This document shows positions 1,981-16,079 of a DNA stretch of 64,000 nt, in pieces. The translations under genes were made by a program, and so were the position numbers. The notes beneath the pieces were generated by a model. The model did not search any database. It worked only from the letters and a program-made list of their open reading frames with translations, and was not told where the DNA came from. This stretch comes from Aliihoeflea sp. 40Bstr573. Its GTDB lineage: Bacteria; Pseudomonadota; Alphaproteobacteria; Rhizobiales; Rhizobiaceae. The stretch covers positions 124,001-188,000 of the forward strand of contig NZ_JAAAMH010000003.1 of NCBI RefSeq assembly GCF_024105655.1. Direction: 5' to 3'. Position 1 is the stretch's first letter. Each line of letters starts with the position of its first letter.

Positions 1981-2757
1981 TTAAATGGCGGTAATGCCGC
2001 CATCGACCGCCAGCGTCTGGCCGGTCATGAAGCTGTTGTTCGGTTCGCCGGCAAAAAGCATGACCTCGATCACCTCGTCGACCTCGGCCAGACGGCGCAT
2101 CGGCACGCCGCGCACCAGATCCTTCTCGGCGGAAGCCGCGTCCTCGCCGATCGCGCCGAGCGCATCCGTCGCCATCGGCGTGCGGGCGTAGGAGGGGCAG
2201 ACGGCGTTGATGCGGATGCCTTTGGAGGCATATTCCGCCGCTGCCGATCGCGTCAGGCCGACCACGCCATGCTTGGCGGCGGAATAGACTGCCAGTCGCG
2301 GCGCTCCGGCAATGCCGGCAACGGAGGCGACGTTGACGATTGCACCCTTGGTTCCATCAAGGCGATACTGCCGTTCGAGCGCCGGCAACTGGTGCTTCAT
2401 TGCGTAGAACACGCCCATCAGGTCGATGTCGATGACGCGCCGCGCCTCCTCTGAATCCATCGAGGGCAGCTTGGAAAATGCATGCGCGATGCCGGCATTG
2501 TTGAAGGCGACGTCGAGCTTGCCGAACCGCTTCAGTGCCAGGTTGACGAGGTCGCGCGAGTGCTCCTCCTTCGAGACGTCGCCCGAAAGCGTGGCCGCCC
2601 GTTCCCCCAGCGGCCCGGCGACGGCGTTGAGTTCCGGCTGGCGAATGTCCGACAGGACGAGATTGGCGCCTTGCTCGGCCAGCCGCTCGGCGAGCCTCTT
2701 GCCAAACCCGCCGCCCGCGCCGGTGACGATCACCGTCAGCCCCTCGTAACGCTTCAT
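1981..2757 (-). CDS. SDR family NAD(P)-dependent oxidoreductase
   Basis: A classical short-chain dehydrogenase of 258 residues, expected to interconvert a hydroxyl and a keto group using NAD(H). The cofactor motif TGAGGGFG is at residues 12-19, an Asp at 37 at the end of beta-2 suggests NAD rather than NADP, NNAG is at 86-89, and the catalytic Ser145, Tyr158 and Lys162 (YSAAK) are all present. The C-terminus MTGQTLAVDGG is typical of the family. The start at MKRYEGL was chosen because the open frame upstream of it lies over the neighbouring kinase gene. It is the last gene of a minus-strand run (SDR, MaoC, kinase, SDR) diverging from a TetR/acyl-CoA dehydrogenase operon. A 3-hydroxyacyl or 4-hydroxyacyl substrate is an inference from this context. 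Confidence 0.9.
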   Translation of the reverse strand: MKRYEGLTVIVTGAGGGFGKRLAERLAEQGANLVLSDIRQPELNAVAGPLGERAATLSGDVSKEEHSRDLVNLALKRFGKLDVAFNNAGIAHAFSKLPSMDSEEARRVIDIDLMGVFYAMKHQLPALERQYRLDGTKGAIVNVASVAGIAGAPRLAVYSAAKHGVVGLTRSAAAEYASKGIRINAVCPSYARTPMATDALGAIGEDAASAEKDLVRGVPMRRLAEVDEVIEVMLFAGEPNNSFMTGQTLAVDGGITAI

Positions 2758-2780
2758 GTCAGCCCCCCGATGGTGCCGGC

Positions 2781-3815
2781 TCACTTGCCGGTCTTGATGG
2801 TTTCGACGGCCAGCCCGGCGAGCAGCTTCACCGCCTCGCCATAGGTTTTCGCCTTTTCCGGATTGGATGCGTTGCCATCGAGCGCGCGTTTGTAGACGCC
2901 CTGGCAGATTGCTGCGAGGCGGAAGAACGAGAAGGCGAGGTAGTAGGTCCAATTGTCGATCCCGGCTATGCCGCGGCGCTCGCAATAGGCCTCGACATAT
3001 TCGGCCTCGCTCGGCAGGCCGATCCGCTTGCGGTCGACGCCGCCGAGCCCCTTGAAGGCCGATGTGTGCGGCAATCGCCACTGCATGCACTGGTAGGACA
3101 GGTCCGCATAGGGATGGCCGAGCGTCGACAGCTCCCAGTCCAGCACCGCGACGACTTTCGGCGCATCGGGCGCGAAGATCATGTTGTCGAGCCGGTAGTC
3201 GCCGTGGACGAGCGAGACGAGCCCGTCGTCGGGCACGGCGTTCGCCTCGAGCCAGTCGAGCAACGTCTCCATATCCTCGATCCGGCCTGTCTCAGAGGCG
3301 CGGTATTGGCTCGACCAACGTGCGAACTGGCGGTCGAAATAGCTGCCCGGTCGGCCAAAATCGGCAAGTCCGGCGGCTTCGAAGTCGACCGAATGGAGCG
3401 CCGCAAGCACCCGGTTCATGTCGTCGTAGATCGCCTTGCGCTCGGCGTTGTCCTTCGCGTCGGGCAGGGCAGGGTCCCAGAAGATGCGCCCATCGACGAA
3501 GTCCATGACGTAGAACATGCGCCCGATCGGCGAATCCTCGGGCGCCAGATGCACCATGTTCGGCACCGGCACGCCCGTCGCCCCCAGCGCCTTCATGACG
3601 CGAAACTCGCGGTCCACCTGGTGGGCCGACTTCAAAAGTTCGCCCGGCGGTTTGGCCCGCAGCACGTACCGCCCGCTCTGCGTCGTCAGGAGATAGGTCG
3701 GGTTCGACTGGCCGGCATTGAATTTCTTGATGTCGGCGAGCTCCGAAAACCCCGGGATCTCGGCCTCGAGATAGGGCGCGAGCGTATCGATCTCGAGTGC
3801 GTTGGGGTCACTCAT
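2781..3815 (-). CDS. APH-family kinase resembling the N-terminal domain of ACAD10/ACAD11
   Basis: A 344-residue protein with the aminoglycoside-phosphotransferase/choline-kinase fold. Visible motifs are the catalytic loop VHGDYRLDNMIF and the metal-binding segment VLDWELSTLGHPYADL. The latter wording is characteristic of the kinase domain of ACAD10/ACAD11 and of bacterial proteins annotated as phosphotransferase family proteins beside acyl-CoA dehydrogenases. It is therefore unlikely to be an antibiotic-resistance enzyme. In related systems (LvaA in Pseudomonas levulinate catabolism; ACAD11) this domain phosphorylates a 4-hydroxyacyl-CoA; applying that here is inference. Its ATG overlaps the stop of the upstream MaoC-like gene by four bases (ATGA), so the two are probably translationally coupled. 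A separate acyl-CoA dehydrogenase lies about 2 kb away across the divergent promoter. Confidence 0.88.
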   Translation of the reverse strand: MSDPNALEIDTLAPYLEAEIPGFSELADIKKFNAGQSNPTYLLTTQSGRYVLRAKPPGELLKSAHQVDREFRVMKALGATGVPVPNMVHLAPEDSPIGRMFYVMDFVDGRIFWDPALPDAKDNAERKAIYDDMNRVLAALHSVDFEAAGLADFGRPGSYFDRQFARWSSQYRASETGRIEDMETLLDWLEANAVPDDGLVSLVHGDYRLDNMIFAPDAPKVVAVLDWELSTLGHPYADLSYQCMQWRLPHTSAFKGLGGVDRKRIGLPSEAEYVEAYCERRGIAGIDNWTYYLAFSFFRLAAICQGVYKRALDGNASNPEKAKTYGEAVKLLAGLAVETIKTGK

Positions 3816-4303
3816 GCCTGTGCTTCCTCGCGCTGCAGGACGGCGAGCGTCAGCCAGCGCGCCGTCAGCGCGGGCTTCTTCGCGCCCTCGATCTCCACCG
3901 TCACGTCGGTCGCGACCTGGATCCAGCCCGAGGGCCGCACGTTGACGTCGGCGAGCGTGAACCGGCCGCGCACGCGCGCGCCGGTCTTCACGGGCGTCAC
4001 GAAGCGCACCTTCTCGAACCCGTAATTGACGCCCATCTCGGCATTCGCCAGCGGCGGGATCGATTCATAGGAAAACGTTGAGAGCAGCGAAAGCGACAGG
4101 AAACCATGCGCGATGGTTCCGCCGAAGGGCGTCGCCGCGGCGCGTTCGGGGTCGACGTGGATGAACTGGTGATCGTCGATCGCATCGGCGAACATGTCGA
4201 TCATGCCTTGCGTGACGGTGCGCCAGGGTGACACGCCGATCTCGTTGCCGACACTGGCCACGAGCTGGTCGATCGAGACCGGCTCCAGACGGGGACCTTC
4301 CAT
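3812..4303 (-). CDS. MaoC-like (hotdog) enoyl-CoA hydratase/dehydratase
   Basis: A 163-residue single-hotdog protein of the R-specific enoyl-CoA hydratase family. The hydratase signature is visible: DDHQFIHVDPERA followed by FGGTIAHGFLSLSLL, giving the catalytic Asp and His. It is expected to add water across a 2-enoyl-CoA or to remove it. The start MEGPRLEP at 4303 was preferred over longer reading because the stretch upstream overlaps the SDR gene ending at 4315 and has no family likeness. It shares an ATGA overlap with the downstream kinase gene and sits 11 bases after the upstream SDR, so it is part of the minus-strand catabolic operon. Confidence 0.88.
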   Translation of the reverse strand: MEGPRLEPVSIDQLVASVGNEIGVSPWRTVTQGMIDMFADAIDDHQFIHVDPERAAATPFGGTIAHGFLSLSLLSTFSYESIPPLANAEMGVNYGFEKVRFVTPVKTGARVRGRFTLADVNVRPSGWIQVATDVTVEIEGAKKPALTARWLTLAVLQREEAQA

Positions 4304-4314
4304 GGGCGGGAATC

Positions 4315-5130
4315 CTAATCCTTGAACAGCGACATGCCGTGCTGGACAGACTGCCCGCCGTCGATCGGCAGAATCGCGCCCGTCACGTAGCTTCCGGCTT
4401 TCGAGCACAGATACAGCGTCGCGCCGGCGATGTCATGAGGGGCGCCGATGCGGCCGAGCGGAACGCGCGAGCCGACATGGTCCGCCTTCTCCTCGGTACC
4501 CGTGGCGAAGGCCGTCATCCGGCTCTGGAAGGGACCGGGCGCGAAAGCGTTGACGGTGATGCGCCGTTCGGCGAACTCGATCGCCAGCGTGCGCGTGAGG
4601 TGATGCACCGCGGCCTTCGAGGCGGTGTAGGAATAGGCGCCATCGGCGATCGGCTGCGTGCCCATCACCGATCCCAGATTGACGATGCGGGCAGGGTCCT
4701 CGTCGCTTGCCGCCCGTTCGAGTTCGGGCAGGAGTTCGCGCGTCAGGTGGAAGAGGCCGGTCACGTTGACGTTCAACACCTTCGCCCAGGCCGAATAGGG
4801 AAAGTCGCCAAGCTCGGCGCCCCAGGAGACGCCGGCATTGTTGAACAGGATGTTCAGCTTGTCCGTGCGCTGGCGCACCTCGGCGACGAGTGCGGCGATG
4901 CCTTCCTCCGTGGAGACGTCCCCGCCGAAGCCTTCCGCCGTGCCTTGAGTTCCCATGGCGTTCAGCTCTTCGGCGGTGCGGGCGCAGTCATGGCCCTTGC
5001 GCGATGCGATCAGCACGCGGGCGCCGCCATGCATCAGCGCGGTCGCGGCCATGCGGCCGATGCCGGTCGCCGCGCCGGTGACGAGTGCGGTCTTTCCGGC
5101 CACGGAAAACAGGTCTTCGATGTAGCTCAT
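4315..5130 (-). CDS. SDR family oxidoreductase
   Basis: A 271-residue classical SDR and the first gene of the minus-strand operon. TGAATGIG is at residues 18-25; Ser-Arg at 43-44 after beta-2 points to NADP(H); NNAG is at 97-100; the catalytic YTASK and the C-terminal VTGAILPIDGG are present. Two ATG codons are adjacent (5133 and 5130); the second gives better spacing to the strong GGGGAGGA site and is used here. The intergenic region to the divergent TetR gene carries a perfect palindrome that could control both directions. Substrate is unknown; a keto- or hydroxy-acyl-CoA is likely from the neighbours. Confidence 0.9.
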   Translation of the reverse strand: MSYIEDLFSVAGKTALVTGAATGIGRMAATALMHGGARVLIASRKGHDCARTAEELNAMGTQGTAEGFGGDVSTEEGIAALVAEVRQRTDKLNILFNNAGVSWGAELGDFPYSAWAKVLNVNVTGLFHLTRELLPELERAASDEDPARIVNLGSVMGTQPIADGAYSYTASKAAVHHLTRTLAIEFAERRITVNAFAPGPFQSRMTAFATGTEEKADHVGSRVPLGRIGAPHDIAGATLYLCSKAGSYVTGAILPIDGGQSVQHGMSLFKD

Positions 5131-5173
5131 CATTCCTCCCCAAGAAGTTTCGCAACGCCGTTTCGAAGTCGCG

Positions 5174-5198
5174 TTGACAACATACCCGGTAGTATGTT
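5174..5198. promoter_or_regulatory. Probable TetR operator overlapping a -35 element
   Basis: Between the divergent SDR and TetR genes lies a perfect inverted repeat: AACATAC at 5179-5185 and GTATGTT at 5192-5198, with a 6-base spacer. A consensus TTGACA (5174-5179) overlaps its left edge on the plus strand. The position beside a tetR gene, symmetry and size fit an autoregulatory TetR-family operator; a clear -10 hexamer at 17 bases is not evident. Confidence 0.6.
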
Positions 5199-5288
5199 CA
5201 TCATTCGAACGTCCGTAAAGGCCCTTCGCGAAAACCGGCAAAAGACTGGTGGAGAGCCTTGCAGAACGGCGGGAGGAAATCGGTTCGC

Positions 5289-5933
5289 ATGGCGCTCGGC
5301 ATACGGGAACGCACGCTCGACAGTTCGCGAGCCGCCATCTTGGAGGCAGCCGCACGCTGTTTCCACGAGCGCGGCTACGCGGCGACGTCGATCGACGACG
5401 TGGCCCGGGCGCTGCAGTCGACCAAGGGCCGCATCTACCACCATTTCGAATCCAAGGCCGACCTTTTCGCCGAGGTGTTTCGCGCCGGCATGGACATGAA
5501 CTATGCCGCGCTCGAACCCTTGCGCAGCATGAAGGCAGAGGCCTACCAGCTGTGGCGCCGCTTCGCCTGGGTCCATGTCGACCAGATGATCACCACCCGT
5601 GCCTTCCAGCGCGTCGTGTGGATGGGCGTCGAGATGCATCTCGTGGGCGCGCCGACGCCCCACCAGCGCGCCCTGTTCGAGGAACTGTTCGAGACCCGCT
5701 CGCGCTATGGCGACATCTTCCGCAAGCTGATCGCAGAAGGGCGCGAAACGGGCCATTTCCATTTCCCCAATCTCAGCGTCGCGAACCAGCTGATGTTCAT
5801 GACGCTCAATTCGCCGATCTTCTGGTACTCGCCGCGCACCGGAGAGACGCGCGCCGACGTCGAGGATCTCATCGCACAAGTCGTCACCTGCGCCTGGCGC
5901 GGGCTGGGCGGTACGGAAGGAACCACCACATGA
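5289..5933 (+). CDS. TetR/AcrR family transcriptional regulator
   Basis: A 214-residue repressor-type protein with an N-terminal helix-turn-helix ([20 protein letters not shown], then [23 protein letters not shown]) and a divergent C-terminal ligand domain. It probably senses an acyl-CoA or the free acid handled by the surrounding enzymes, which is inference. The ATG at 5289 follows GGGAGGA at a rather long 12-base spacing; a TTG at 5259 (ten residues longer, preceded by GGAGA) is an alternative start. Its stop overlaps the ATG of the acyl-CoA dehydrogenase gene (ATGA), so regulator and enzyme are co-transcribed. The palindrome at 5179-5198 just upstream is the likely binding site. Confidence 0.9.
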
Positions 5934-7180
5934 GCGTCAATCCCGAGATGAACCTCGCCATGAGCGAGCGGGTCAAACCGCTGCACGAAAAGGTCGCGCG
6001 CATGGTGCGCGAGGAGATCATCCCGCTCGACGAGGAGTTCCTGGCCGAGATCGGCAAGGATGGCGACCGGTGGACCTATACGAAGCGCCAGACCGAAATC
6101 CTCGAAGGCCTGAAGGCCAAGGCGCGCGAACGCGGCCTGTGGAATTTCTGGCTCACCCATTCCGACCAGGGCTACGGCCTGTCGACCGTCGAATACGCCT
6201 ATCTGGCCGAGGAGATGGGCAAGGCGCATCTGGGCGCGGAAACCTTCAACTGCTCGGCGCCCGACACCGGCAACATGGAGGTGCTGGAGCGCTACGGCAC
6301 GCCCGAGCACAAGGAACGTTGGCTGAAGCCGCTCCTGAACGGAGAGATCCGCTCCGCCTATTTGATGACCGAGCCGGACGTCGCCTCGTCGGACGCCACC
6401 AACATCGCCATGAGTTGCGAGCGCGACGGTGACGACTACGTTCTGAACGGCGAGAAATGGTGGTCGTCGGGTGCCGGCGATCCGCGCTGCAAGATCTACA
6501 TCACCATGGTCGCTTCCCCCTCTTCAGACCGGCCGAAGCACCAGCAGCATTCGATGATCCTGGTTCCCGCCGACACGAAGGGCATTACCAAGCTGCGCGC
6601 GATGCAGGTCTATGGCGACGACGACGCGCCGCACGGCCATCTGCACCTGAAATTCGAGGATGTGCGCGTTCCCGCCTCGAACCTGATCCTCGGCGAGGGC
6701 AGGGGCTTCGAAATCGCGCAGGGCCGGCTCGGGCCGGGCCGCATCCATCACTGCATGCGCGCCATCGGCCAGGCCGAAATGGCGCTGGAGCTGATGTGCA
6801 AGCGCTCCTTGCGCCGCGAGGCCTTCGGCAAGAAACTCGCGCAACTGGGCGCCAATTTCGATATCATCGCCGAGTGCCGCATGGAGATCGAGATGGCCCG
6901 GCTCCTCTGCCTCAAGGCCGCCTGGATGATCGACCAGGGCGACAAGAAGGCCGCCGCGCCGTGGATCAGCCAGATCAAGGTCGTCGCGCCGCGCGTCGCG
7001 CTCAAGGTCACGGACGAGGCGGTGCAGATGTATGGCGGGCAGGGCATCAGCCAGGACACCCCGCTCGCCCGCTCATGGACGCATCTGCGCACGCTGCGTC
7101 TTGCCGACGGCCCCGACGCCGTCCACCGCCGCCAGGTCGCGCGCGAAGAACTGAAGAAGTACACGCAGGAAAAGGTTTGA
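5930..7180 (+). CDS. Acyl-CoA dehydrogenase family protein, ACAD10/ACAD11 type
   Basis: A 416-residue flavoprotein of the acyl-CoA dehydrogenase superfamily. Visible are the FAD/substrate-binding stretch [17 protein letters not shown], the [13 protein letters not shown] segment, the RREAFGK helix, and [14 protein letters not shown]. Near the C-terminus the sequence reads [16 protein letters not shown]. In ordinary acyl-CoA dehydrogenases this place carries the E-G-T catalytic motif; here Asp-Gly-Pro replaces it, as in the ACAD10/11 group. It may be a canonical dehydrogenase or, with the nearby kinase, act on a phosphorylated 4-hydroxyacyl-CoA as LvaC does; the latter is inference. It starts within the TetR stop (ATGA overlap) and is followed 2 bases later by an oxidoreductase gene. 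Confidence 0.92.
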
Positions 7181-7182
7181 CC

Positions 7183-8151
7183 ATGAAGGCCATCGTCGCT
7201 CGCGATTTCGGGCCGCTCGACCAACTCGACTATATTGACTGGCCGGAGCCGGAGGTCGGGCCGAAGACCGTCGTCATCGATGCCGCGATGGTCGGCGTCA
7301 ACTATCCCGACGGCCTGCTCGTACAGGGCCTCTACCAGATGAAACCCGAGACACCCTTCGTGCCCGGCATGGAGGTGGCGGGCCGCGTCTCGGCCATCGG
7401 CGAGGGCGTGACGCGCTTCAAGGTCGGCGATCGCGTCGGCTCGGTTTCCGCGCTTGGCTCCTATGCCGAGAAGGTCGCGGCCGACGAGAGCGCCGTCATG
7501 CCACTGCCGGATGGCCTCACCGACGCGGATGCCTGCGCGCTGATGTGCGGCTACGGCACGTCGCACTACGCGCTGAAGCAGCGCGCTCAGCTCAAGCCCG
7601 GCGAGACGCTGTGCGTGCTCGGCGCATCCGGCGCCACCGGCGTCGCCGCCGTCCAGATCGGCAAGGCGATGGGCGCACGTGTCATCGCCGTCGCCTCGAC
7701 GCCGCAAAAGCAGGACGTGGCGAAGGCGGCCGGCGCCGATATCGTGCTCGGCTATGACAACCTCAAGGACGCTTTGAAGGAAGCGACCGGCGGCAAGGGC
7801 GTCGACGTCGCCTTCGATCCGGTCGGCGGCGAGGGCTTCGACGTCCTGTCGCGCTCGATGGGTTGGGGCGGGCGCCTGCTCGTCATCGGCTTTGCCTCCG
7901 GCACGATCCCGAAGCTTGCCGTGAACCTGACCCTGGTCAAGGGCTACAGCGTCGTCGGCGTCTTCTGGGGCGCGTTCACCGCCAAGGAGCCGAAGGCCTA
8001 TGCCGACAACATGAAGGAGCTGATCGGCTGGTATCTCGATGGCAAGGTCAAGCCGGTCATCGAGGGCATCTACCCGCTCGCCGATGCGCCGTCCATTCTG
8101 GAACGCGTGCTGGGTCGCGGCGCGACCGGCAAGATCGTTCTCAAGCCGTGA
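7183..8151 (+). CDS. NADPH:quinone oxidoreductase-like MDR protein
   Basis: A 322-residue medium-chain dehydrogenase/reductase without zinc ligands. The N-terminal GroES-like half includes GVNYPDGLLVQGLY and PGMEVAGRV; the Rossmann half carries LGASGATGVAAVQIGKAMGA and the ADIVLGY segment, typical of the QOR/enoyl reductase subgroup. Likely an NADPH-dependent reductase of a 2-enoyl thioester or quinone. It follows the acyl-CoA dehydrogenase gene by two bases and precedes a second MDR gene by ten bases, so it belongs to the TetR-headed operon. In that setting an enoyl-CoA or enone reductase role is more likely than quinone detoxification, but this is inference. Confidence 0.88.
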   Translation: MKAIVARDFGPLDQLDYIDWPEPEVGPKTVVIDAAMVGVNYPDGLLVQGLYQMKPETPFVPGMEVAGRVSAIGEGVTRFKVGDRVGSVSALGSYAEKVAADESAVMPLPDGLTDADACALMCGYGTSHYALKQRAQLKPGETLCVLGASGATGVAAVQIGKAMGARVIAVASTPQKQDVAKAAGADIVLGYDNLKDALKEATGGKGVDVAFDPVGGEGFDVLSRSMGWGGRLLVIGFASGTIPKLAVNLTLVKGYSVVGVFWGAFTAKEPKAYADNMKELIGWYLDGKVKPVIEGIYPLADAPSILERVLGRGATGKIVLKP

Positions 8152-8161
8152 AGGAGACATG

Positions 8162-9196
8162 ATGGCTCTTCCCAAGACCATGAACGCCCTCATCCTGAAG
8201 AACGAGGGCTATGCGCGCGACCATTCCGGAACGGCTCTGGAAGCGATGGAGCCCTATGTCGAAAAGGGAACCATCGAGGTGCCCGAGCCCGGCCCGAGCC
8301 AGGTTCTGGTCAAGGTCGCGCTCGCGTCCATCAATCCCTCCGACGTCATGTTCCTGAAAGGGCTCTACGGCCAGCCGCGCAAGCAGGGCCGGCCCGCCGG
8401 CTTCGAAGGCGTCGGTGAGGTGGTGGCTGCCGGCGCCGACGCGCAGGGCCTTGTCGGCAAGCGCGTCGCCTTCGCCACGGGCCTGTCCAACTGGGGAAGC
8501 TGGGCCGATTACGCGCTCGCCGAAGCCGGCGCGGCGATCCCGATCATGGACGGCGTGCGCGACGAGGATGCGGCCGCGATGATCGTCAACCCGCTCACCG
8601 CGCTCGCCATGTTCGGCATCGTCAAGGACGAAGGCGAGAAGGCCTTCGTCGTCACCGCCGGCGCGAGCCAGCTTTGCAAGCTGATGATCGCGGTCGCGAA
8701 GGACGAGGGCTACCGTCCCGTCGCCATCGTGCGCCGCGACGACCAGATCGAGCCCTTGAAGGCCATTGGCGCCGCGCATGTGCTCAACGCGGAAAGCGCC
8801 GATTTCGACCGCCGGCTCGCCGAGGTGCTGGGCTCCGAAAGGCCGCGCATCTTCCTCGACGCGGTCACCGGGCCGCTCGCCGCCAAGGTGTTCCACACGA
8901 TGGGCAAGCGCGCGCGCTGGATCATCTATGGCCGGCTCGATCCGGAAACGACGCCGATCATCGAACCGGGCCAGATGATCTTCATGCACAAGAAGATCGA
9001 GGGCTTCTGGCTGACCGAATGGATGCGCACGGCCGGCAACGACAAGCGCATGGCCGCCGTCATCGAGGCGCAAAAGCGCTTTGCCGACGGGCGCTGGAAG
9101 ACGGACGTAACCGCTGTCGTGCCGCTTGCCGATGCGGTCGAACGGGTGGCCGGCGAACTCGCCCGGCCGAACGGAAAGGTATTCATCAGGCCATGA
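8162..9196 (+). CDS. Second MDR (zinc-independent alcohol dehydrogenase-like) oxidoreductase
   Basis: A 344-residue MDR-fold protein. SINPSDVMFLKGLYG and GFEGVGEVVAAGADAQGLVG mark the GroES-like domain; the Rossmann segment reads VVTAGASQLCKLMIAVAKDEG, a variant of the usual glycine-rich GxxGxxG turn, so cofactor binding may differ from its neighbour. No zinc-ligand Cys cluster is seen. Two ATGs are adjacent (8159, 8162); the second is better spaced from AAGGAG. It is closely packed behind the first MDR gene. The two are clearly different sequences rather than a recent duplication. Substrate unknown. Confidence 0.85.
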   Translation: MALPKTMNALILKNEGYARDHSGTALEAMEPYVEKGTIEVPEPGPSQVLVKVALASINPSDVMFLKGLYGQPRKQGRPAGFEGVGEVVAAGADAQGLVGKRVAFATGLSNWGSWADYALAEAGAAIPIMDGVRDEDAAAMIVNPLTALAMFGIVKDEGEKAFVVTAGASQLCKLMIAVAKDEGYRPVAIVRRDDQIEPLKAIGAAHVLNAESADFDRRLAEVLGSERPRIFLDAVTGPLAAKVFHTMGKRARWIIYGRLDPETTPIIEPGQMIFMHKKIEGFWLTEWMRTAGNDKRMAAVIEAQKRFADGRWKTDVTAVVPLADAVERVAGELARPNGKVFIRP

Positions 9197-9202
9197 CGAA
9201 AA

Positions 9203-9227
9203 GGTGCGCGGGAGGAGCTTGCGCACC
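9203..9227. other. Inverted repeat in the gap before the ABC transporter genes
   Basis: GGTGCGC at 9203-9209 and GCGCACC at 9221-9227 form a perfect 7-bp stem with an 11-base loop containing GGGAGGAG. No T-run follows, so it is not a clear terminator; it could stabilise or partition the upstream message, or pause polymerase ahead of livH. The rest of the 102-base gap holds the livH ribosome-binding site only. Confidence 0.4.
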
Positions 9228-9298
9228 CGTACTGGCAGCTTAAGGTTGAAGGACATCGCGGCGTCAGATCGCGTGTCATAAAGTGGAGGAGAACGTCC

Positions 9299-10174
9299 TT
9301 GGACGTGTTGCAGCTCATCGTCAGCGGCCTTGCGAACGGCTGTGTGTACGGCCTCATCGCCATGGGGTTCGTGCTGATCTACAAGGCGACCGAAGCGGTG
9401 AATTTCGCCCAGGGCGATTTCATGATGCTCGGCGCCTTCATCTGCCTCGGGCTCACAAATCCGCAATTCATGGGCCTGCCCTTTTGGGTGTCGGTGCCCA
9501 TCGCCATCGCCATCATGGGCGCCTTCGGCTATGCGCTCGATCTCGTCGTCCTGCGGCGCATGTTCGGGCAGTCGCAGATCGCCATCGTCATCCTCACCAT
9601 CGCACTCGGCTTCGTGCTTCGCTTTGCCGCCGGGGTCATCTGGGGGCACGAGCCGATCTCGCTGGCCTCGCCGATCGCCGGCCGCGACGTGCGCTTTGCC
9701 GGCGTGGTGCTCGGGCTCGACGAGGTGATGGTCATCTGCGTCACCGCCGTCTTGACGCTGCTCCTCTATCTCTACTTCAACCGCACCAAGCTCGGCGTCG
9801 CCATGCAGGCATCCTCGCAGAACCAGCTTGCCGCCTATTACATGGGCATCCCGGTCAAGCGCATCCATTCCTTGATCTGGGCGCTGTCGGGCATGACGGC
9901 GGCGGTCGCCGGCATCCTCTTCGCCTCAAAGGGGTCCATCGATCCGTCGATCGGGCTTCTGGGCATCAAGGCCTTCGCGGCTGCGGTCATCGGCGGTTTC
10001 GGCTCTCTGCCGGGCGCGCTCCTGGGCGGCATCATCGTCGGCCTGATCGAGCCCTTCTCTGGCCGCTACATGCCGTCCGGCTACTCGCAGATCATGCCGT
10101 ATCTCCTGCTTTTCCTCATTCTGATTTTCCGACCGCACGGCATCCTGGCCCAGGTCCACGCGAAGAAGGTGTGA
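9299..10174 (+). CDS. livH: Branched-chain amino acid-type ABC transporter permease (LivH)
   Basis: A 291-residue inner-membrane permease of the HAAT family, one half of the channel of a Liv-type importer. Family landmarks are LQLIVSGLANGCVYGLIAMG at the start, EAVNFAQGDFMMLGAF, and the cytoplasmic EAA-like stretch FAAAVIGGFGSLPGALLGG that contacts the ATPases. About eight hydrophobic segments are visible. The start is TTG at 9299: GGAGGA lies 8 bases upstream and no ATG fits. It is followed by livM after four bases. With an acyl-CoA ligase in the same operon the substrate is more likely a carboxylic acid (aromatic, branched or keto acid) than an amino acid. Confidence 0.93.
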   Translation: MDVLQLIVSGLANGCVYGLIAMGFVLIYKATEAVNFAQGDFMMLGAFICLGLTNPQFMGLPFWVSVPIAIAIMGAFGYALDLVVLRRMFGQSQIAIVILTIALGFVLRFAAGVIWGHEPISLASPIAGRDVRFAGVVLGLDEVMVICVTAVLTLLLYLYFNRTKLGVAMQASSQNQLAAYYMGIPVKRIHSLIWALSGMTAAVAGILFASKGSIDPSIGLLGIKAFAAAVIGGFGSLPGALLGGIIVGLIEPFSGRYMPSGYSQIMPYLLLFLILIFRPHGILAQVHAKKV

Positions 10175-10178
10175 GGGC

Positions 10179-11279
10179 ATGAGAACCGTTTTCAAGACGT
10201 CCTACGACGCCGACATCAACCTCTTCCGCCATCCTCAGCAGATGGGCTGGTATCTGGCCTTGTTCGCACTGGCTTTGGCGCTGCCCCTCCTGTTGTCGAA
10301 CTTCGCCCTTGGCGAGGCGACCAACGTGCTCATCTGGGCCATCGCCTGCATGGGGCTGATGATCCTGGTCGGCCAGTCGGGCCAGGCGAGCCTCGGCCAT
10401 GCCGCGTTCCTCGCCATCGGCTGCTATGCCAACATCCTCCTGCAGACGCGGCTCGGCGTGCCCTTCCTGATCTCCTTCCCGCTCGCGGGGCTGATCGCGG
10501 GTGTCGCCGGCGCGCTCATCGCCATGCCGATGACCAAGCTGCACGGCATCTATCTCGCCATCGGCACCATCGCGGTCGTCATCCTCGTGGAGGATTTCAT
10601 CGTCATCGCGACGCCGCTCACCAACGGCGTCATCGGGCTGGTCGCGCCGCCGATCCAGATCTTCGGCCTGGTCATCGACCGCTATTCGACGCCGAACCTC
10701 CTCTATTACCTGACGCTGGCGATCACGCTTCTCGTCGTGCTGCTTTACCGCAATCTCCTGCGCTCGCCGCTTGGCCGTTCCTTCGCCGCGATCCGCGATT
10801 CGGAGATTTCGGCGCAGGCGATGGGCGTCAACGTGGCGCGCACCAAGACCGTCGCCTTCGGCATCTCTTCCGGCATCACGGGCCTGGCCGGCGCGCTGAT
10901 GGGCCACTATGCCGGCATCTTCAACAACGAGACCTTCAATCTCATCATCTCGATCCAGCTCCTGCTCGCCATCGTCATCGGCGGCCTGGGGTCCATCCAC
11001 GGCGCCTTCTTCGGCGCGGCGGTGGTCGCGATGCTGCCGCAGTCCATCGCGGTCGCCCGCGACTTCCTGACCCGCATGATCGGCGGTGGATCGATCGCGA
11101 TCCCGGGCATGGAAACGGCGATCTTCGGCCTGATCCTCATCCTGTTCATCCTGTTCGAGCCGATGGGCATCTACGGCCGCTGGGTGAAGATCCGGACCTA
11201 TTTCGAGCTCTTTCCCTTCTACCGGAAGGACATGTTCCGCCGCCAGAAAGCCTATCTCAAGACGGAGCGTATGCGATGA
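10179..11279 (+). CDS. livM: Branched-chain amino acid-type ABC transporter permease (LivM)
   Basis: A 366-residue permease pairing with LivH. It has an N-terminal cytoplasmic extension, then multiple membrane helices starting near residue 25. GQSGQASLGHAAFLAIGCYA is the typical LivM motif, and AIRDSEISAQAMGVNV followed by LLAIVIGGLGSIHGAFFGAA forms the ATPase-coupling loop. The C-terminal tail (RWVKIRTYFELFPFYRKD) is charged and cytoplasmic. Its stop overlaps the livG start (ATGA), so permease and ATPases are translated together. Confidence 0.94.
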   Translation: MRTVFKTSYDADINLFRHPQQMGWYLALFALALALPLLLSNFALGEATNVLIWAIACMGLMILVGQSGQASLGHAAFLAIGCYANILLQTRLGVPFLISFPLAGLIAGVAGALIAMPMTKLHGIYLAIGTIAVVILVEDFIVIATPLTNGVIGLVAPPIQIFGLVIDRYSTPNLLYYLTLAITLLVVLLYRNLLRSPLGRSFAAIRDSEISAQAMGVNVARTKTVAFGISSGITGLAGALMGHYAGIFNNETFNLIISIQLLLAIVIGGLGSIHGAFFGAAVVAMLPQSIAVARDFLTRMIGGGSIAIPGMETAIFGLILILFILFEPMGIYGRWVKIRTYFELFPFYRKDMFRRQKAYLKTERMR

Positions 11280-12061
11280 GCTTGCTCGAACTCGACAATG
11301 TCACGCTGCGCTTCGGTGGCCTCACCGCCGTCAGTCAGGTCTCCTTTTCGGTCGAGGAGGGAGAGGTGTTCGCACTGGTCGGCCCGAACGGCGCCGGCAA
11401 ATCGACGATCTTCAACCTCATCAGCCGCATCTACGATCCGGCCGAAGGCGACATCCGCTTCGACGGCAGGTCGATCCTCGACAGGAAGCCGCACGAGATC
11501 GCGGGGCTCGGCATCGCGCGCACCTTTCAGAACATCGAGCTGTTCGACCACGCCACGGTATTGCAGAACCTGCTCGTCGGGCGCCATCGGCACCGCCACA
11601 GCAGCATGTGGTCCGAGCTCCTCTTCACGCCCTACGTGCGGGCCGAGGAGCGACGCCACCGCGAGGCGATCGAGAAGGTGATCGACTTCCTCGACCTGCA
11701 GGCCTATCGCGAAAAATACATCGCGGGCCTGCCCTACGGCGTGCGCAAGGTCGTCGAAATGGGCCGTGCGCTGGCCATCGAGCCGCGCCTGTTGCTCCTC
11801 GACGAACCGGCCTCCGGCCTTTCGGTCGAGGAAACGCAGGACGTCGCCTTCTGGGTCGAGGACATCAAGAAGCAGATGGGCATCACCGTCCTGATGGTGG
11901 AGCATGACATGCACCTCGTCGCATCCGTGTCCGATCGCGTGCTGGCACTTGCCGACGGCATGATGCTCGCCATGGGAACGCCGCAAGAGGTGCAGAACCA
12001 CCCCAAGGTGGTCGAGGCCTATATCGGCGTCGCCGACGAACACGAAAAGGTGCTGGCATGA
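11276..12061 (+). CDS. livG: ABC transporter ATP-binding protein (LivG)
   Basis: A 261-residue cytoplasmic ATPase of the importer. Walker A is GPNGAGKST, the Q-loop region reads ARTFQNIELFDHATVLQNLL, and Walker B is LLLLDEPASGL. The switch His occurs in MVEHDMHLV. The signature is degenerate: instead of LSYG(E)Q(Q) the sequence reads LPYGVRKVVEMGRAL, as in other LivG proteins. It overlaps livM and livF by four bases each. The protein is intact and of normal length for the family. Confidence 0.94.
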   Translation: MSLLELDNVTLRFGGLTAVSQVSFSVEEGEVFALVGPNGAGKSTIFNLISRIYDPAEGDIRFDGRSILDRKPHEIAGLGIARTFQNIELFDHATVLQNLLVGRHRHRHSSMWSELLFTPYVRAEERRHREAIEKVIDFLDLQAYREKYIAGLPYGVRKVVEMGRALAIEPRLLLLDEPASGLSVEETQDVAFWVEDIKKQMGITVLMVEHDMHLVASVSDRVLALADGMMLAMGTPQEVQNHPKVVEAYIGVADEHEKVLA

Positions 12062-12873
12062 ACATGAGCGCCGCAACGCCGGCTCCCGTCGACAGAACCG
12101 ACGGCAAGTCCATACTGTCGATCCGCAACCTTGAAAGCTATTACGGGCCGATCATGGCGATCCGTGGCGCCAGCCTCGACGTCCGAGAGGGCCAGATCGT
12201 CACCGTCCTCGGCGCCAACGGCGCCGGCAAGACGACGCTTCTCAAGACGATCTCCGGCGTCATGGACCCGGAGAAGGGCCAGATATTCTATGCCGGCCAG
12301 AACATCGCAGGCGCCAATCCCGACAAGGTCGTGCGCCTCGGCATGGTTCACGTCCCCGAAGGCCGCGAGGTCTTTCCTTTGCTGACCGTCGAGGAAAACC
12401 TGAAGATGGGCGCCTTCACGCGCTCCGATACCGACGGCATCGCCCGCGACGAGGAGATGGTCTACGGCTATTTCCCGATCCTCGCCGAGCGTCGCAAGCA
12501 GGCTGCGGGCACCCTTTCGGGCGGCCAGCAGCAGATGCTGGCCATCGGTCGCGGCCTGATGGCAAGGCCGAAGGTCATGCTTCTCGACGAGCCCTCGCTC
12601 GGCCTCTCGCCGCTTCTGGTCAAGGAAATCTTCCAGATCGTGCGCCGTCTCAACAAGGAGCGCGGCGTGACCATCGTCCTCGTCGAGCAGAACGCGAAGG
12701 TTGCCCTCGAAGTGGCCGACTACGGCTATGTCATGGAACTCGGCCGCATCGTCATGGCCGACACCGCCCAGCGGTTGCTTGCGTCCAAGGACATCCAGGA
12801 ATTCTATCTTGGCGTCGTCGAGGAAACCCAGCGCGGCCAGAAGCGCTGGAAGCAGAAGAAGACTTGGCGATGA
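12058..12873 (+). CDS. livF: ABC transporter ATP-binding protein (LivF)
   Basis: A 271-residue ATPase forming the second half of the motor. Walker A is GANGAGKTT, signature LSGGQQQML, Walker B VMLLDEPSLGLS and the switch region IVLVEQNAKVAL. It is longer than ordinary LivF: about 17 extra residues at the N-terminus and a basic tail (QRGQKRWKQKKTWR) after the usual EFYLG end. I recall this tail from Liv operons that also encode an acyl-CoA synthetase, which is the case here (22 bases downstream). The ATGA overlap with livG supports coupled translation. Confidence 0.93.
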   Translation: MNMSAATPAPVDRTDGKSILSIRNLESYYGPIMAIRGASLDVREGQIVTVLGANGAGKTTLLKTISGVMDPEKGQIFYAGQNIAGANPDKVVRLGMVHVPEGREVFPLLTVEENLKMGAFTRSDTDGIARDEEMVYGYFPILAERRKQAAGTLSGGQQQMLAIGRGLMARPKVMLLDEPSLGLSPLLVKEIFQIVRRLNKERGVTIVLVEQNAKVALEVADYGYVMELGRIVMADTAQRLLASKDIQEFYLGVVEETQRGQKRWKQKKTWR

Positions 12874-12895
12874 CCGCAGTCGGGAGGAGGTCCAC

Positions 12896-14785
12896 ATGAC
12901 CATCGCAGAAAAACTGCCGCCCATGCAGACCGTGCGCGGCCATTCCTTCAACCAGGACCTTCAGCGCGCGCCGTTCTATTTCGACGGCTGCGACACGCTG
13001 GTGAAGCTGTTTCGCCAGCGCTGTCTGGAACTTGGTCCCAAGATCGCCCACCGCGAGAAGGATTACGGCATCTGGCTCGCCTATAGCTGGACCGATTTCT
13101 ACGAGCATGCGCGGCTGATCGGCCTCGGCCTCATCGCACTCGGGCTGAAACGAGGCGAGGTCGTCTCCATCCTCTCGGAAGACAACAAGGAGTGGATCTA
13201 CTCCGATCTCGGCATCCAGTCGGTCGGTGGCATCGCGTCGGGGGTCTACACGACCGATTCTGCCAAGCAGCTCCAGTATCTCGTCAACGATTCCGACAGC
13301 CGCTTCCTCTTCGTCGAAAATGACGAGCAGCTCGACAAGTTCCTGTCCGTGCGCGGCGAGATGCCTGGCCTTTCCAAGGTCGTCGTCTTCGACCGCGACG
13401 GCCTGCACGAATTCGCCGACGACCAGGTCATCTTCCTCGACGACCTCTACCGGCTCGGCCGGGATTTCCTGAAGGAGAACCCGAACCGGTTCGACGAGGA
13501 AATCGCGAAGTCGCAGCCGCAGGATACCGCGATCCTCGTCTATACGTCCGGCACGACCGGGCCGCCCAAGGGCGCGATGATCTCGCATTCCAACATCATC
13601 GCCTCGGTCATCGGCTCGGCGCTGACGCTGCCGGTCACGCCCGACGACGAGCAGGTCTGCTTCCTCCCGCTCTGCCACATCCTCGAGCGCCTGATCACCG
13701 TCTTCACCCCGATCGGGCTGAAATCGACCGTCAACTTCGCCGAAAGCCCGGAAACCGTCTTCGACAACGTCCGCGAGGTCTCGCCGCACGTCTTCACCGG
13801 CGTGCCGCGCGTATGGGAAAAGATCTACAGCCGCATCTCCATCATGGCGAACGATTCCACGCCAATCGGCCGCTGGGCGTATCGTCAGGCAGTCAAGACG
13901 GGCATGAAACGTGCCGCAGCGCTGGAGGCCGGCGAACCGGTCCCGGGCGGGACAAGGCTCGCCTATGCGTTCTGGGATTTCATGGTGCTCTCCAACCTGC
14001 GCCGGATGCTCGGCTTCGACCGGCTGCGGCGCGGCACGACGGGCGCGGCGCCGATCTCGCCCGATCTTTTGAAATGGTACAAGGCCGTCGGCATCACCGT
14101 CCTGGAAGGCTACGGGATGACGGAAAGCTCGGGCGTCATCTCGATCAACCTGCTCGACGATTCCAAGAACGGCAGCGTCGGCAAGGTCGTGCCGGGGTCT
14201 GAAGTCCGCATCTCCCCGGAAGGGGAGATCCAGTACAAGGGCGCCAACGTCTTCAAGGGCTATTGGATGAAGCCCGACAAGACCGCCGAGACGATCACCG
14301 AGGATGGCTGGCTGAAGACCGGCGACGTCGGACGCATCGACAATGAAGGCTTTCTCTTCGTCACCGGCCGCGTCAAGGACATCATCATCACCGCCGGCGG
14401 CAAGAACATCACGCCGGCCGAGATCGAGAACCGGCTGAAATTCTCGCCTTACATCTCGGACGCGGTGGTGATCGGCGACAAGCGCAAGTTCCTCTCCTGC
14501 CTGATCATGATCGACCAGGAAAACGTCGAGAAATTCGCGCAGGACAAGAAGGTGCCCTTCAACAATTTCAAGTCGTTGTGCGCCGCGCAAGAGGTGCGCG
14601 ATCTGATCGGCTCGATCGTCGAGGAAACCAACCGCGAATTCGCTCGCGTGGAGCAGATCAAGGATTTCAGGCTCATCGACGTCCTCCTCACCGCCGAGGA
14701 CGAGGAACTGACGGCGACGATGAAGCTGAAGAGAAGTTTCGTCGAGCAGAAGCACAAGCCTCTGATCGACGAGATGTACGGTTGA
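12896..14785 (+). CDS. AMP-dependent acyl-CoA synthetase (long-chain type)
   Basis: A 629-residue member of the ANL superfamily that activates a carboxylic acid to its CoA thioester through an acyl-adenylate. The P-loop TSGTTGPPKGAMISH, the A5-like motif EGYGMTESSGV, the adenylate-binding GWLKTGDVGRID and the linker GRVKDIIITAGGKNITP are all present; the last leads to the C-terminal cap. Length and the GGKNITP form fit long-chain/FadD15-like enzymes, but substrate length cannot be read from sequence alone. The gene lies between livF and the binding-protein gene with an excellent GGAGGAGG site, which argues that the imported compound is its substrate. Confidence 0.92.
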   Translation: MTIAEKLPPMQTVRGHSFNQDLQRAPFYFDGCDTLVKLFRQRCLELGPKIAHREKDYGIWLAYSWTDFYEHARLIGLGLIALGLKRGEVVSILSEDNKEWIYSDLGIQSVGGIASGVYTTDSAKQLQYLVNDSDSRFLFVENDEQLDKFLSVRGEMPGLSKVVVFDRDGLHEFADDQVIFLDDLYRLGRDFLKENPNRFDEEIAKSQPQDTAILVYTSGTTGPPKGAMISHSNIIASVIGSALTLPVTPDDEQVCFLPLCHILERLITVFTPIGLKSTVNFAESPETVFDNVREVSPHVFTGVPRVWEKIYSRISIMANDSTPIGRWAYRQAVKTGMKRAAALEAGEPVPGGTRLAYAFWDFMVLSNLRRMLGFDRLRRGTTGAAPISPDLLKWYKAVGITVLEGYGMTESSGVISINLLDDSKNGSVGKVVPGSEVRISPEGEIQYKGANVFKGYWMKPDKTAETITEDGWLKTGDVGRIDNEGFLFVTGRVKDIIITAGGKNITPAEIENRLKFSPYISDAVVIGDKRKFLSCLIMIDQENVEKFAQDKKVPFNNFKSLCAAQEVRDLIGSIVEETNREFARVEQIKDFRLIDVLLTAEDEELTATMKLKRSFVEQKHKPLIDEMYG

Positions 14786-14834
14786 GGAGAACCGTATGAA
14801 AACAATGCGGAACAACCCCAGGAGGAGTTTGAAA

Positions 14835-16079
14835 ATGAGACTGTTGTTCGGAAAATCCATTCTCGCGCTCGGACTTGCCGCCGGCATGTCCACCGCCGCC
14901 TTCGCCACGCAGGGCGTCACCGACACGGAGGTCGTGATCGGCTCCAACGGCGACCTGTCGGGCATCTTCGCCGCGTTCAATGTCGGCGCCATCAAGGCCG
15001 CGCAGAACCTCTTCGACGAGGTCAACGCAGAAGGCGGCATCCATGGCCGCCAGATCCGCTTCGTCGTCGAGGATCACGGCTACCAGGTGCCGCGCGCCGT
15101 GCAGAACTTCAACAAGCTGGTCAATTCCGACCAGGTCTTCGCGATGATCCTGAACCTCGGCACGCCGCACAACATCGCCGGCTTCCAGATCATGGAGCCC
15201 AAGCAGGTCGCCAATATCGGCCCGCTCACCTCGGCCCGGCAGATGCTCGAAGGCGACATCACCTACAAGTATTCGGGCTTCGCGGCCTACTATGACGGCC
15301 TTCGCGCCGGCATCAAGATGCTGGCCGAAGAGGGCGGCGACGAGGTCCAGAACATCTGCTCGATGTACCTGCCGTCCGATTTCGGCCTCGAAGTCCATGA
15401 AGCCGCCGTCGACGAGGCCGAAGCGCTCGGGCTCAACTTCGCCGGCGAAACGACCCACCGCCCCGACGAGCAGGACTTCGTCGGCGCCGTCACGCGTCTT
15501 CGCGAACTTGATTGCGACATCATCGCCACCGGCGTCGGCGTGCGCCAGACGATCATCGCGCTCGGCACCGCCAAGCGTCTCGGCTGGGATGACGTCAAGT
15601 TCATCGGCTCGTCGGCCGGCTTCAACACCGCCATCGCCAAGGTCGAGGGCGGGGTGACGGAAGGCTACTACGCCGCTGCCGGCTGGGCCGACCACGAGGA
15701 CCGGATGGACAATCCGGAAGTCAAGGCCTGGGCCGACGGCTACGCCGAGAAGAACGGCGAGCCGGCCGGCACGGCCGCGATCCTCGGCCACGGCGCCGCC
15801 ACGACCCTCATCAGGGCGCTGGAAGCTGCCGGTCCGGACCTCACCGCCGAGAGCTTCAAGGATGCCATGGAGAGCCTTGAATATACCGACGTCATCTCCG
15901 GCAACATCCCCGTCAAGTACACGCCCGAAGACCACCAGGGCGGCTCGACGATCGTGATCTCGAAGATCGAGGGCGGCAAGTGGATCGAGGTCGGCCGCGT
16001 CGACCCGACCGCGGAAGGCGGTGCCGATGCTGCGGCGGCGTCTGCTGAAGGCGCGGAAGAGACGGACGCCGCCGACTGA
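14835..16079 (+). CDS. livK: ABC transporter substrate-binding protein (LivK/HAAT family)
   Basis: A 414-residue periplasmic binding protein. A signal peptide is visible (MRLLFGKSILALGLAAG, probable cleavage after AFA at residue 24), followed by the type I fold typical of HAAT receptors: DTEVVIGSNGDLSG, EVNAEGGIHGRQIRFVVEDH and the hinge region. The C-terminus has an unusual Ala/Glu/Asp-rich tail of about 20 residues. The start at 14835 was chosen over 14796 because GGAGGAG lies just upstream and the signal peptide then begins correctly. It ends the operon and is followed by a strong terminator. Placement of the receptor gene last, after the acyl-CoA synthetase, suggests its ligand is a carboxylate. 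Confidence 0.92.
   Translation: MRLLFGKSILALGLAAGMSTAAFATQGVTDTEVVIGSNGDLSGIFAAFNVGAIKAAQNLFDEVNAEGGIHGRQIRFVVEDHGYQVPRAVQNFNKLVNSDQVFAMILNLGTPHNIAGFQIMEPKQVANIGPLTSARQMLEGDITYKYSGFAAYYDGLRAGIKMLAEEGGDEVQNICSMYLPSDFGLEVHEAAVDEAEALGLNFAGETTHRPDEQDFVGAVTRLRELDCDIIATGVGVRQTIIALGTAKRLGWDDVKFIGSSAGFNTAIAKVEGGVTEGYYAAAGWADHEDRMDNPEVKAWADGYAEKNGEPAGTAAILGHGAATTLIRALEAAGPDLTAESFKDAMESLEYTDVISGNIPVKYTPEDHQGGSTIVISKIEGGKWIEVGRVDPTAEGGADAAAASAEGAEETDAAD

Follow-up and report, generated by a model that had tools for sequence, protein, structure and literature searches.

A candidate TetR regulon joining a split ACAD10/11-type kinase and dehydratase to a Liv-type importer and beta-oxidation genes in Aliihoeflea sp. 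40Bstr573

We analysed a 64,000-nucleotide stretch of the genome of the soil bacterium Aliihoeflea sp. 40Bstr573 (the window), in which positions 1981-16079 carry genes for a kinase and an acyl-CoA dehydrogenase (ACAD) of the ACAD10/11 kind next to a complete Liv-type importer. All 14 reading frames are intact, with no internal stops, and form two divergent operons flanking a TetR-family gene (Table 1). The minus-strand operon encodes SDR-B, a MaoC-family protein, the kinase and SDR-A (SDR, short-chain dehydrogenase/reductase), and the plus-strand operon encodes TetR, the ACAD, two medium-chain dehydrogenase/reductase proteins (MDR1 and MDR2), LivH, LivM, LivG, LivF, an acyl-CoA ligase and LivK. 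Both this layout and the gene list agree with the original prediction made from the DNA, each part lying where it had been placed. Kinase and ACAD are separate genes on opposite strands and not one fused chain as in ACAD10/11. The host is Mesorhizobium-like. In ACAD comparisons, the nearest named loci are those of a Rhizobiaceae metagenome-assembled genome (98%) and Mesorhizobium sp. YIM 152430 (97%).

Table 1. Genes and sites of the locus in window coordinates, with the matches behind each assignment
Feature	Position	Strand	Basis
SDR-A, short-chain dehydrogenase	1981-2757	-	PF13561 192.7 bits; frame intact
Split ACAD10/11-type 4-hydroxyacyl-CoA kinase (predicted)	2781-3815	-	PF01636; motifs VHGDYRLDN and VLDWELSTLGHP
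MaoC-family enoyl-CoA hydratase	3812-4303	-	PF01575 86.3 bits
SDR-B	4315-5130	-	PF13561 189 bits; best PDB relative 2b4q 218.7 bits
TTGACA abutting the palindrome	5174-5179	+	could serve the TetR operon as its -35 box (putative function)
20-bp palindrome AACATAC-N6-GTATGTT, candidate operator common to both operons	5179-5198	.	exact
TetR-family regulator, ATG start	5289-5933	+	PF00440 64.6 bits, PF17932 37.6 bits
ACAD10/11-type 4-phosphoacyl-CoA dehydratase (predicted), acyl-CoA dehydrogenase fold	5930-7180	+	ACAD11 similarity and residues
MDR1, PIG3-like quinone/enal reductase	7183-8151	+	TIGR02824 208.4 bits, below cut-off 296.8
MDR2, MDR reductase, distant kin of 2-enoyl thioester reductases	8159-9196	+	PDB 3pi7 531.7 bits
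LivH permease, TTG start	9299-10174	+	PF02653 135.5 bits; kept in Liv-bearing relatives
LivM permease	10179-11279	+	PF02653 112.4 bits; kept in Liv-bearing relatives
LivG ATPase	11276-12061	+	PF00005 102 bits, PF12399 39.2 bits; kept in Liv-bearing relatives
LivF ATPase	12058-12873	+	PF00005 103.6 bits; kept in Liv-bearing relatives
AMP-forming long-chain-type acyl-CoA ligase	12896-14785	+	PF00501 232.2 bits
LivK-type periplasmic binding protein; ligands probably fatty-acid-like acids	14796-16079	+	PDB 4n03 90.4 bits; PF13458

The divergent promoter contains a palindrome, AACATACCCGGTAGTATGTT, with two 7-bp arms around a 6-bp centre, which the original prediction had overlooked. Among 80 named loci collected by ACAD similarity, the palindrome is present in all 28 that carry the TetR gene (27 exact matches, and L123 with one mismatch) and in none of the 52 TetR-less promoters at up to two mismatches; a two-mismatch match in L178 is unrelated and lies outside the promoter. 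In three genomes whose importer operon is separated from the kinase genes, namely G687 (L226, L227), G621 (L230, L231) and G626 (L229, L272), the palindrome is found at both places. From its position and distribution, the palindrome is a candidate operator of both operons, presumably bound by the TetR protein.

We searched 36 further genomes for this site, comprising the 32 other ligase-bearing genomes of the family and four that carry the kinase and lack the ligase (G617, G639, G652, G705). At least one site was found in 32 of them and a site at the cluster in 30 (G639, G705 and 28 of the 32 ligase-bearing ones), whereas only two of 36 control genomes have any site (Fisher p 1.9e-13). G608, G611, G689 and G652 have no palindrome anywhere in the genome at one mismatch. 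The 36 genomes hold 59 sites, compared with six for the pattern read backwards, and on these two comparisons we rejected a chance origin of the palindrome. The controls were hand-picked from the survey tables: 23 genomes without a kinase match, four with only a distant kinase (42-45%), four kinase-bearing Mesorhizobium-like genomes with no TetR at the cluster (G069, G136, G209, G229), three with kinase or ACAD and unchecked TetR status (G537, G688, G709), and two without ACAD and not searched for the kinase (G567, G591). The control site of G567 (L302, near 6314) has the same centre and is flanked by a CoA ligase gene and by an operon for an enoyl-CoA hydratase, a binding protein and a Liv importer; it looks like a related site, as if the same class of regulator governs another importer. 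The other control site, in G651, looks like chance.

The genes beside the remaining sites point to beta-oxidation. We inspected the surroundings of every site that lies outside the cluster in the 36 genomes (26 in total) and of the second site of our own genome; 24 of these 27 lie beside beta-oxidation genes. Nineteen, that of our own genome included, stand just before a gene for an alpha/beta hydrolase followed by one for a FadB-like protein; another three adjoin genes for FadB, a thiolase or both (L279, L284, L288), two adjoin a gene for a FadE-type ACAD (L285, L290), and the remaining three (L287, L300, L301) have no obvious neighbour. In our genome, the site (C12; position 4742 in L273) stands 21 bp before the ATG of the hydrolase. 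Both hydrolases that were tested, our own and that of L281, pass the curated cut-off for the 3-oxoadipate enol-lactonase PcaD (341.9 and 331.4 versus 255.85 bits), and the gene after our own FadB encodes a PimA-like ligase (618.3 bits, below the cut-off of 705.6). In G687 (L226), the importer operon is followed by genes for FadB, a thiolase, PimC/PimD-like ACADs (below the curated cut-offs) and a thioesterase. The regulator thus appears to govern beta-oxidation, with a lactonase-like enzyme as its most frequent second target.

A neighbourhood survey showed that the same gene order recurs in relatives, so the layout is beyond chance. Liv-module genes follow the MDR genes in 21 of the 80 named loci and are missing there in 59; L106 and L123 fell outside the coverage filter and were counted as Liv-bearing by separate inspection. 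TetR is encoded in all 21 Liv-bearing loci versus seven of the 59 Liv-less ones. In the Liv-less locus L177, an RND gene stands directly after MDR2, and in L133, L154 and L043 a few other genes intervene, indicating that the Liv module comes and goes at one site. In the window itself, an RND efflux pump gene (PF00873; 16151-19537, minus strand) lies beyond LivK, and similar pump-like frames occur on the same side in core-only relatives.

In a set of 121 family genomes, ligase and LivK share an identical distribution: both are encoded in the same 33 genomes, which are nested in the 53 with the ACAD, and these in turn fall within the 61 kinase-bearing genomes (Fisher p 5.6e-13 for ligase versus kinase). 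At the thresholds used, neither ligase nor LivK occurs in these 121 genomes without both kinase and ACAD. In 23 of the 33 ligase-bearing genomes, the ligase gene is on the strand opposite to the kinase gene, at a distance of 9-14 kb. In G687 and G626, the entire TetR-ACAD-MDR1-MDR2-Liv-ligase-LivK operon is located away from SDR-B-kinase-SDR-A; the importer module stands apart, with the ACAD still beside the kinase, in G621 (where a TetR gene accompanies the module), G645, G658 and G689; in G608 and G611, a Liv-ligase-LivK module lies away from the kinase contig. The separation in G670 and G679 may reflect contig breaks. Taken as genomics, this strongly supports a coupling of the importer, the kinase/ACAD pair and beta-oxidation. 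The importer pairing put forward in the original prediction therefore stands as an association, through co-occurrence, shared operons and the common palindrome; the uptake of a 4-hydroxy or 4-keto acid, which it also proposed, is not shown by these data. Kinases of the same clade are also found near Liv importers that are only 24-46% identical (L052, L053, L058, L059, L063, L066, L222, L224); such kinases thus seem to have been paired with Liv importers independently on several occasions.

Both members of the pair resemble mammalian ACAD11. By phmmer against the PDB, the kinase matches 3dxp (357 bits), ACAD11 (259.5 bits) and 9o56 (179.5 bits); the PDB scores of the ACAD are 420.5 bits for 4hr3 and 414.9 bits for ACAD11, with ordinary medium-chain ACADs next at 157 bits. 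Residue mapping (chain index equal to the paper number minus one) equates kinase D206, N211 and R162 with ACAD11 D220, N225 and R176; for R86 of the ACAD11 kinase, the mapping is uncertain and we claim no equivalence. ACAD residues H236, R265, R270, H273, R276 and D392, counting from the second codon, correspond to ACAD11 H597, R626, R631, H634, R637 and D753. In ACAD11, R626, H634 and R637 bind the phosphate and D753 is catalytic (R631 and H597 are also named), and kinase residues D220 and N225 are catalytic and assisting, respectively (PMC12440821). The motif HGD(Y/F)RLDN is kept in all 78 kinases of the relatives. GRLGPGR[IVL]HHCMR is matched in 79 of the 80 named ACADs (the last, L177, keeps HHCMR), and DGPDAVH in all 80. 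The scores and the kept residues bear out the assignment of both proteins to the ACAD10/11 kind, as originally proposed. Their chemistry is strongly supported by homology, the activity itself being predicted.

A quick maximum-likelihood tree of 96 kinase rows, which leaves out L043-L045 as near-copies and contains no LvaA sequence, is consistent with this assignment. Rooted on 9o56 and three 32%-identical kinases, it places the ACAD11 kinase within the 92-row side that holds the window kinase, with a Shimodaira-Hasegawa-like approximate likelihood ratio (SH-aLRT) support of 100 and with ACAD11 and 9o56 flagged as long branches. The window kinase is thus on the same side as ACAD11 and away from the second bacterial kinase clade. 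A hunt for LvaA in 20 stretches around ACAD matches from the phylum and in plasmids gave no confirmed LvaA and instead this 32%-identical clade. ACADs of the ACAD10/11 kind are widespread in bacteria: at E <= 1e-90, a match is present in 109 of the 349 Pseudomonadota genomes that were sampled.

By sequence, the nearest PDB relative of LivK is 4n03 (90.4 bits versus 43.2 for the next). The same entry, titled 'Fatty acid ABC transporter substrate-binding protein', ranks first in a Foldseek search with the LivK model (mean predicted local distance difference test score, pLDDT, 76.6). This kinship is a pointer and not a proof. The position of leucine-binding protein Glu226, which we take to hold the amino group of the ligand, is occupied by Ser273 in LivK and is invariant in 20 orthologs, a presumed difference from the LIV-I importer. 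The Liv-type binding proteins next to the pim operon of Rhodopseudomonas palustris bind fatty and dicarboxylic acids (PMC3223731). Together these observations point to fatty-acid-like or dicarboxylic acids feeding beta-oxidation as the ligand class, and we name any exact substrate only tentatively.

Our preferred interpretation, which we consider reasonably probable, is that a TetR regulon serves to take up carboxylic acids oxygenated at carbon 4 and to degrade them by beta-oxidation. It builds on the intact genes, the kept residues, the co-occurrence, the common palindrome and the genes beside its other copies; the order of the steps, the ligand and TetR as the binder are what we infer from them. 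LivK and LivHMGF would import a hydrophobic acid, which the ligase would convert to its CoA thioester. An SDR would reduce the 4-oxo group where one is present, and the MDR proteins may reduce conjugated double bonds. The kinase would then phosphorylate the 4-hydroxyl of the acyl-CoA and the ACAD would remove the phosphate to give a 2-enoyl-CoA. MaoC, an SDR and co-regulated beta-oxidation enzymes, namely the products of the hydrolase-FadB operon in our own genome and also of thiolase and FadE genes in relatives, would finish the breakdown. TetR would bind the palindrome in the divergent promoter and the second one before the hydrolase-FadB operon, and would probably be released by an acyl-CoA.

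It should be noted that several observations weigh against this interpretation. The importer is dispensable, being absent from the 59 Liv-less loci and from 20 of the 53 ACAD-bearing family genomes, so those cells must obtain the substrate otherwise or make it. Liv presence changes only three times on the 79-row kinase-plus-ACAD tree, too few events for an independent-pairs test of Liv against TetR or MDR1, and the Fisher value for ligase and kinase is uncorrected for kinship. As for the palindrome, four of the 32 other ligase-bearing genomes (G608, G611, G640, G689) have no cluster site at one mismatch, none is present in the sequence retrieved for the separated Liv modules of G645 and G658, and the sites in G640 and G617, the only ones there, seem fortuitous. 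The second site of our own genome has one mismatch and a different centre. Finally, the LivK model also matches many Liv-type binders of other ligands in Foldseek, among them aromatic acids, urea and amino acids.

The hydrolases admit a bolder version, in which TetR controls a PcaD-family gamma-lactone hydrolase, the ABC importer with its ligase, the kinase/dehydratase pair and FadB. Gamma-lactones or 4-hydroxy (di)carboxylic acids of plant or oxidised-lipid origin would be imported, opened, activated, phosphorylated and sent to beta-oxidation. This version fits the gene content and leans on a family model for the hydrolase; we regard it as doubtful. The main rival is a Pim-like system, which we rate as unlikely: importer and ligase would carry unsubstituted fatty or dicarboxylic acids, and the pair would merely rescue 4-hydroxyacyl-CoA arising as a by-product or from oxidised lipids. 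The fatty-acid-binding relative of LivK, the regulon sites before FadB, thiolase and FadE genes, the PimA-like ligase after our own hydrolase-FadB pair and the PimC/PimD-like ACADs in L226 would all suit it, as would the R. palustris precedent (PMC3223731) and the four genomes (G621, G645, G658, G689) whose importer module stands apart while the ACAD is with the kinase. What speaks against it is that ligase and LivK never occur without kinase and ACAD in the family genomes at the thresholds used, and that G687 and G626 keep the ACAD in the importer operon, away from the kinase operon.

Two other explanations concern single parts of the locus. The kinase could act on a different hydroxyl, for instance a tertiary alcohol in the side chain of a terpenoid or steroid, and the ACAD would then be an ordinary dehydrogenase. 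In a Foldseek search with the kinase model (mean pLDDT 83.3), 3dxp ranks first, a 25-hydroxy steroid kinase takes ranks 2, 3 and 5, and the 50 matches listed include no ACAD11 chain; the steroid enzyme serves anaerobic sterol breakdown (PMC8449060). By sequence, however, this kinase scores only 39.4 bits against the 259.5 bits of ACAD11, and the ACAD has the mapped ACAD11 phosphate-site residues that conventional ACADs lack according to the available text of PMC12440821; we therefore think this improbable. Still less credible is that LivHMGFK simply imports branched-chain amino acids and lies by chance beside a fatty-acid locus. The family names (PF02653, PF12399, PF13458) and several leucine-binding proteins among the LivK model matches would agree with it, and we judged it very unlikely in view of the 4n03 kinship by both sequence and fold and of Ser273; the identical genome sets of ligase and LivK, nested in those of ACAD and kinase, and the palindrome common to importer and kinase operons also argue against it.

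Compared with known systems, the pair belongs to the same kinase and ACAD families as mammalian ACAD10 and ACAD11, and all catalytic and phosphate-binding residues that could be mapped are identical to those of ACAD11. It differs in consisting of two proteins and in its company of importer, TetR and accessory reductases. Papers of 2024-2025 assign the entry of 4-hydroxy acids into beta-oxidation to the mammalian enzymes. Because the reaction on 4-hydroxyacyl-CoA has been demonstrated for ACAD10/11 (PMC12440821, PMC11342911) and a bacterial ortholog pair was able to replace the ACAD10 domains in vitro on 4-hydroxyhexanoyl-CoA (PMC11342911), the split pair itself is not new, its chemistry being known from lva, ACAD10/11 and bacterial orthologs. 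That pair, the orthologs of LvaA and LvaC from Burkholderia, is likewise split and is closer to ACAD10 than LvaA and LvaC are (PMC11342911).

The lva operon of Pseudomonas also combines an APH-family kinase, an ACAD, an SDR and an acyl-CoA ligase, presumably for the same chemistry (PMC6692424). Unlike lva, the present cluster has no lvaB, LvaR-type sigma-54 regulator or ActP-type symporter, and instead has TetR, the Liv importer, MaoC and the two MDR proteins. That no lvaB-like gene is present, as the original prediction stated, holds for the minus operon, in which the gaps (23 bp, an overlap and 11 bp) are too small for a 12-kDa product; the remaining genome was not searched. The cluster can be called a distinct version of lva in that its gene set differs, but the absence of lvaB is no mark of this by itself, since the lva cluster of Pseudomonas citronellolis lacks lvaB too in the available text of PMC6692424. 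The R. palustris pimFABCDE operon resembles the locus in that a Liv-type transporter with binders of fatty and dicarboxylic acids lies beside CoA ligase and beta-oxidation genes, and the available text of PMC3223731 describes no 4-hydroxyacyl-CoA kinase/ACAD pair there. The cluster ligase is FadD11-like (best NCBIfam match, 400 bits, below the cut-off of 950) and not a PimA equivalog, and the ligase of our second operon falls short of the PimA cut-off. A kinase locus on a Sulfitobacter plasmid (L222) combines a 57% identical kinase with a Liv-type importer and a pair of MDR genes nearby; its LivH, LivG and LivF are only 25-35% identical, its regulator is of the IclR type and it has an extra histidine phosphatase. 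It looks like a separate assembly.

We know of no described route from importer to beta-oxidation that is wired for 4-hydroxy acid chemistry, nor of any natural feed, levulinate aside, for bacterial ACADs of the ACAD10/11 type. Such a cluster is named in none of the listed titles and abstract starts of open-licence PMC papers, and may still be in print. On the genomic evidence, what is new here is the co-occurrence of the importer with the pair, the TetR-linked palindrome, its presence at both places in three genomes with separated operons and its sites by beta-oxidation genes. A palindrome that links the pair, the importer, a CoA ligase, a lactonase-like hydrolase and FadB would define a concrete regulon, provide a candidate sensor and narrow the choice of inducers to a few, making the question of the natural substrate directly testable.

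Further observations concern the accessory genes. SDR-A is a candidate 3-hydroxyacyl-CoA or 4-oxoacyl-CoA oxidoreductase, and its gene adjoins that of the kinase in many relatives (34 of the 59 Liv-less loci and 19 of 19 full loci). SDR-B may be a 4-oxoacyl-CoA reductase by analogy with LvaD. After 3pi7, the PDB matches of MDR2 are a putative quinone oxidoreductase (94.9 bits) and mitochondrial enoyl thioester reductases (86-87 bits), and these relatives give no indication of its substrate. The TetR gene has an in-frame TTG at 5259, upstream of its ATG.

The pair need not be neighbours. Kinases about 60% identical to ours (L048, L049, L051-L053) lie near ordinary ACADs (26-29%), with the ACAD11-type ACAD (56-58%) encoded elsewhere in those genomes. 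G029 and G126 carry such a kinase with no ACAD match at E 1e-60, and the kinase may have other partners there. In two plasmids, the 32%-identical kinases adjoin histidine phosphatase genes, and such a gene lies beside kinases of very different bacteria (L222 11335-11982, L225 11306-11977, L266 7058-7750, L267 7062-7766). A histidine phosphatase has been reported next to the LvaA homologue of P. citronellolis (PMC6692424). Judged by these neighbourhoods, the phosphatase is a recurrent companion of the kinase.

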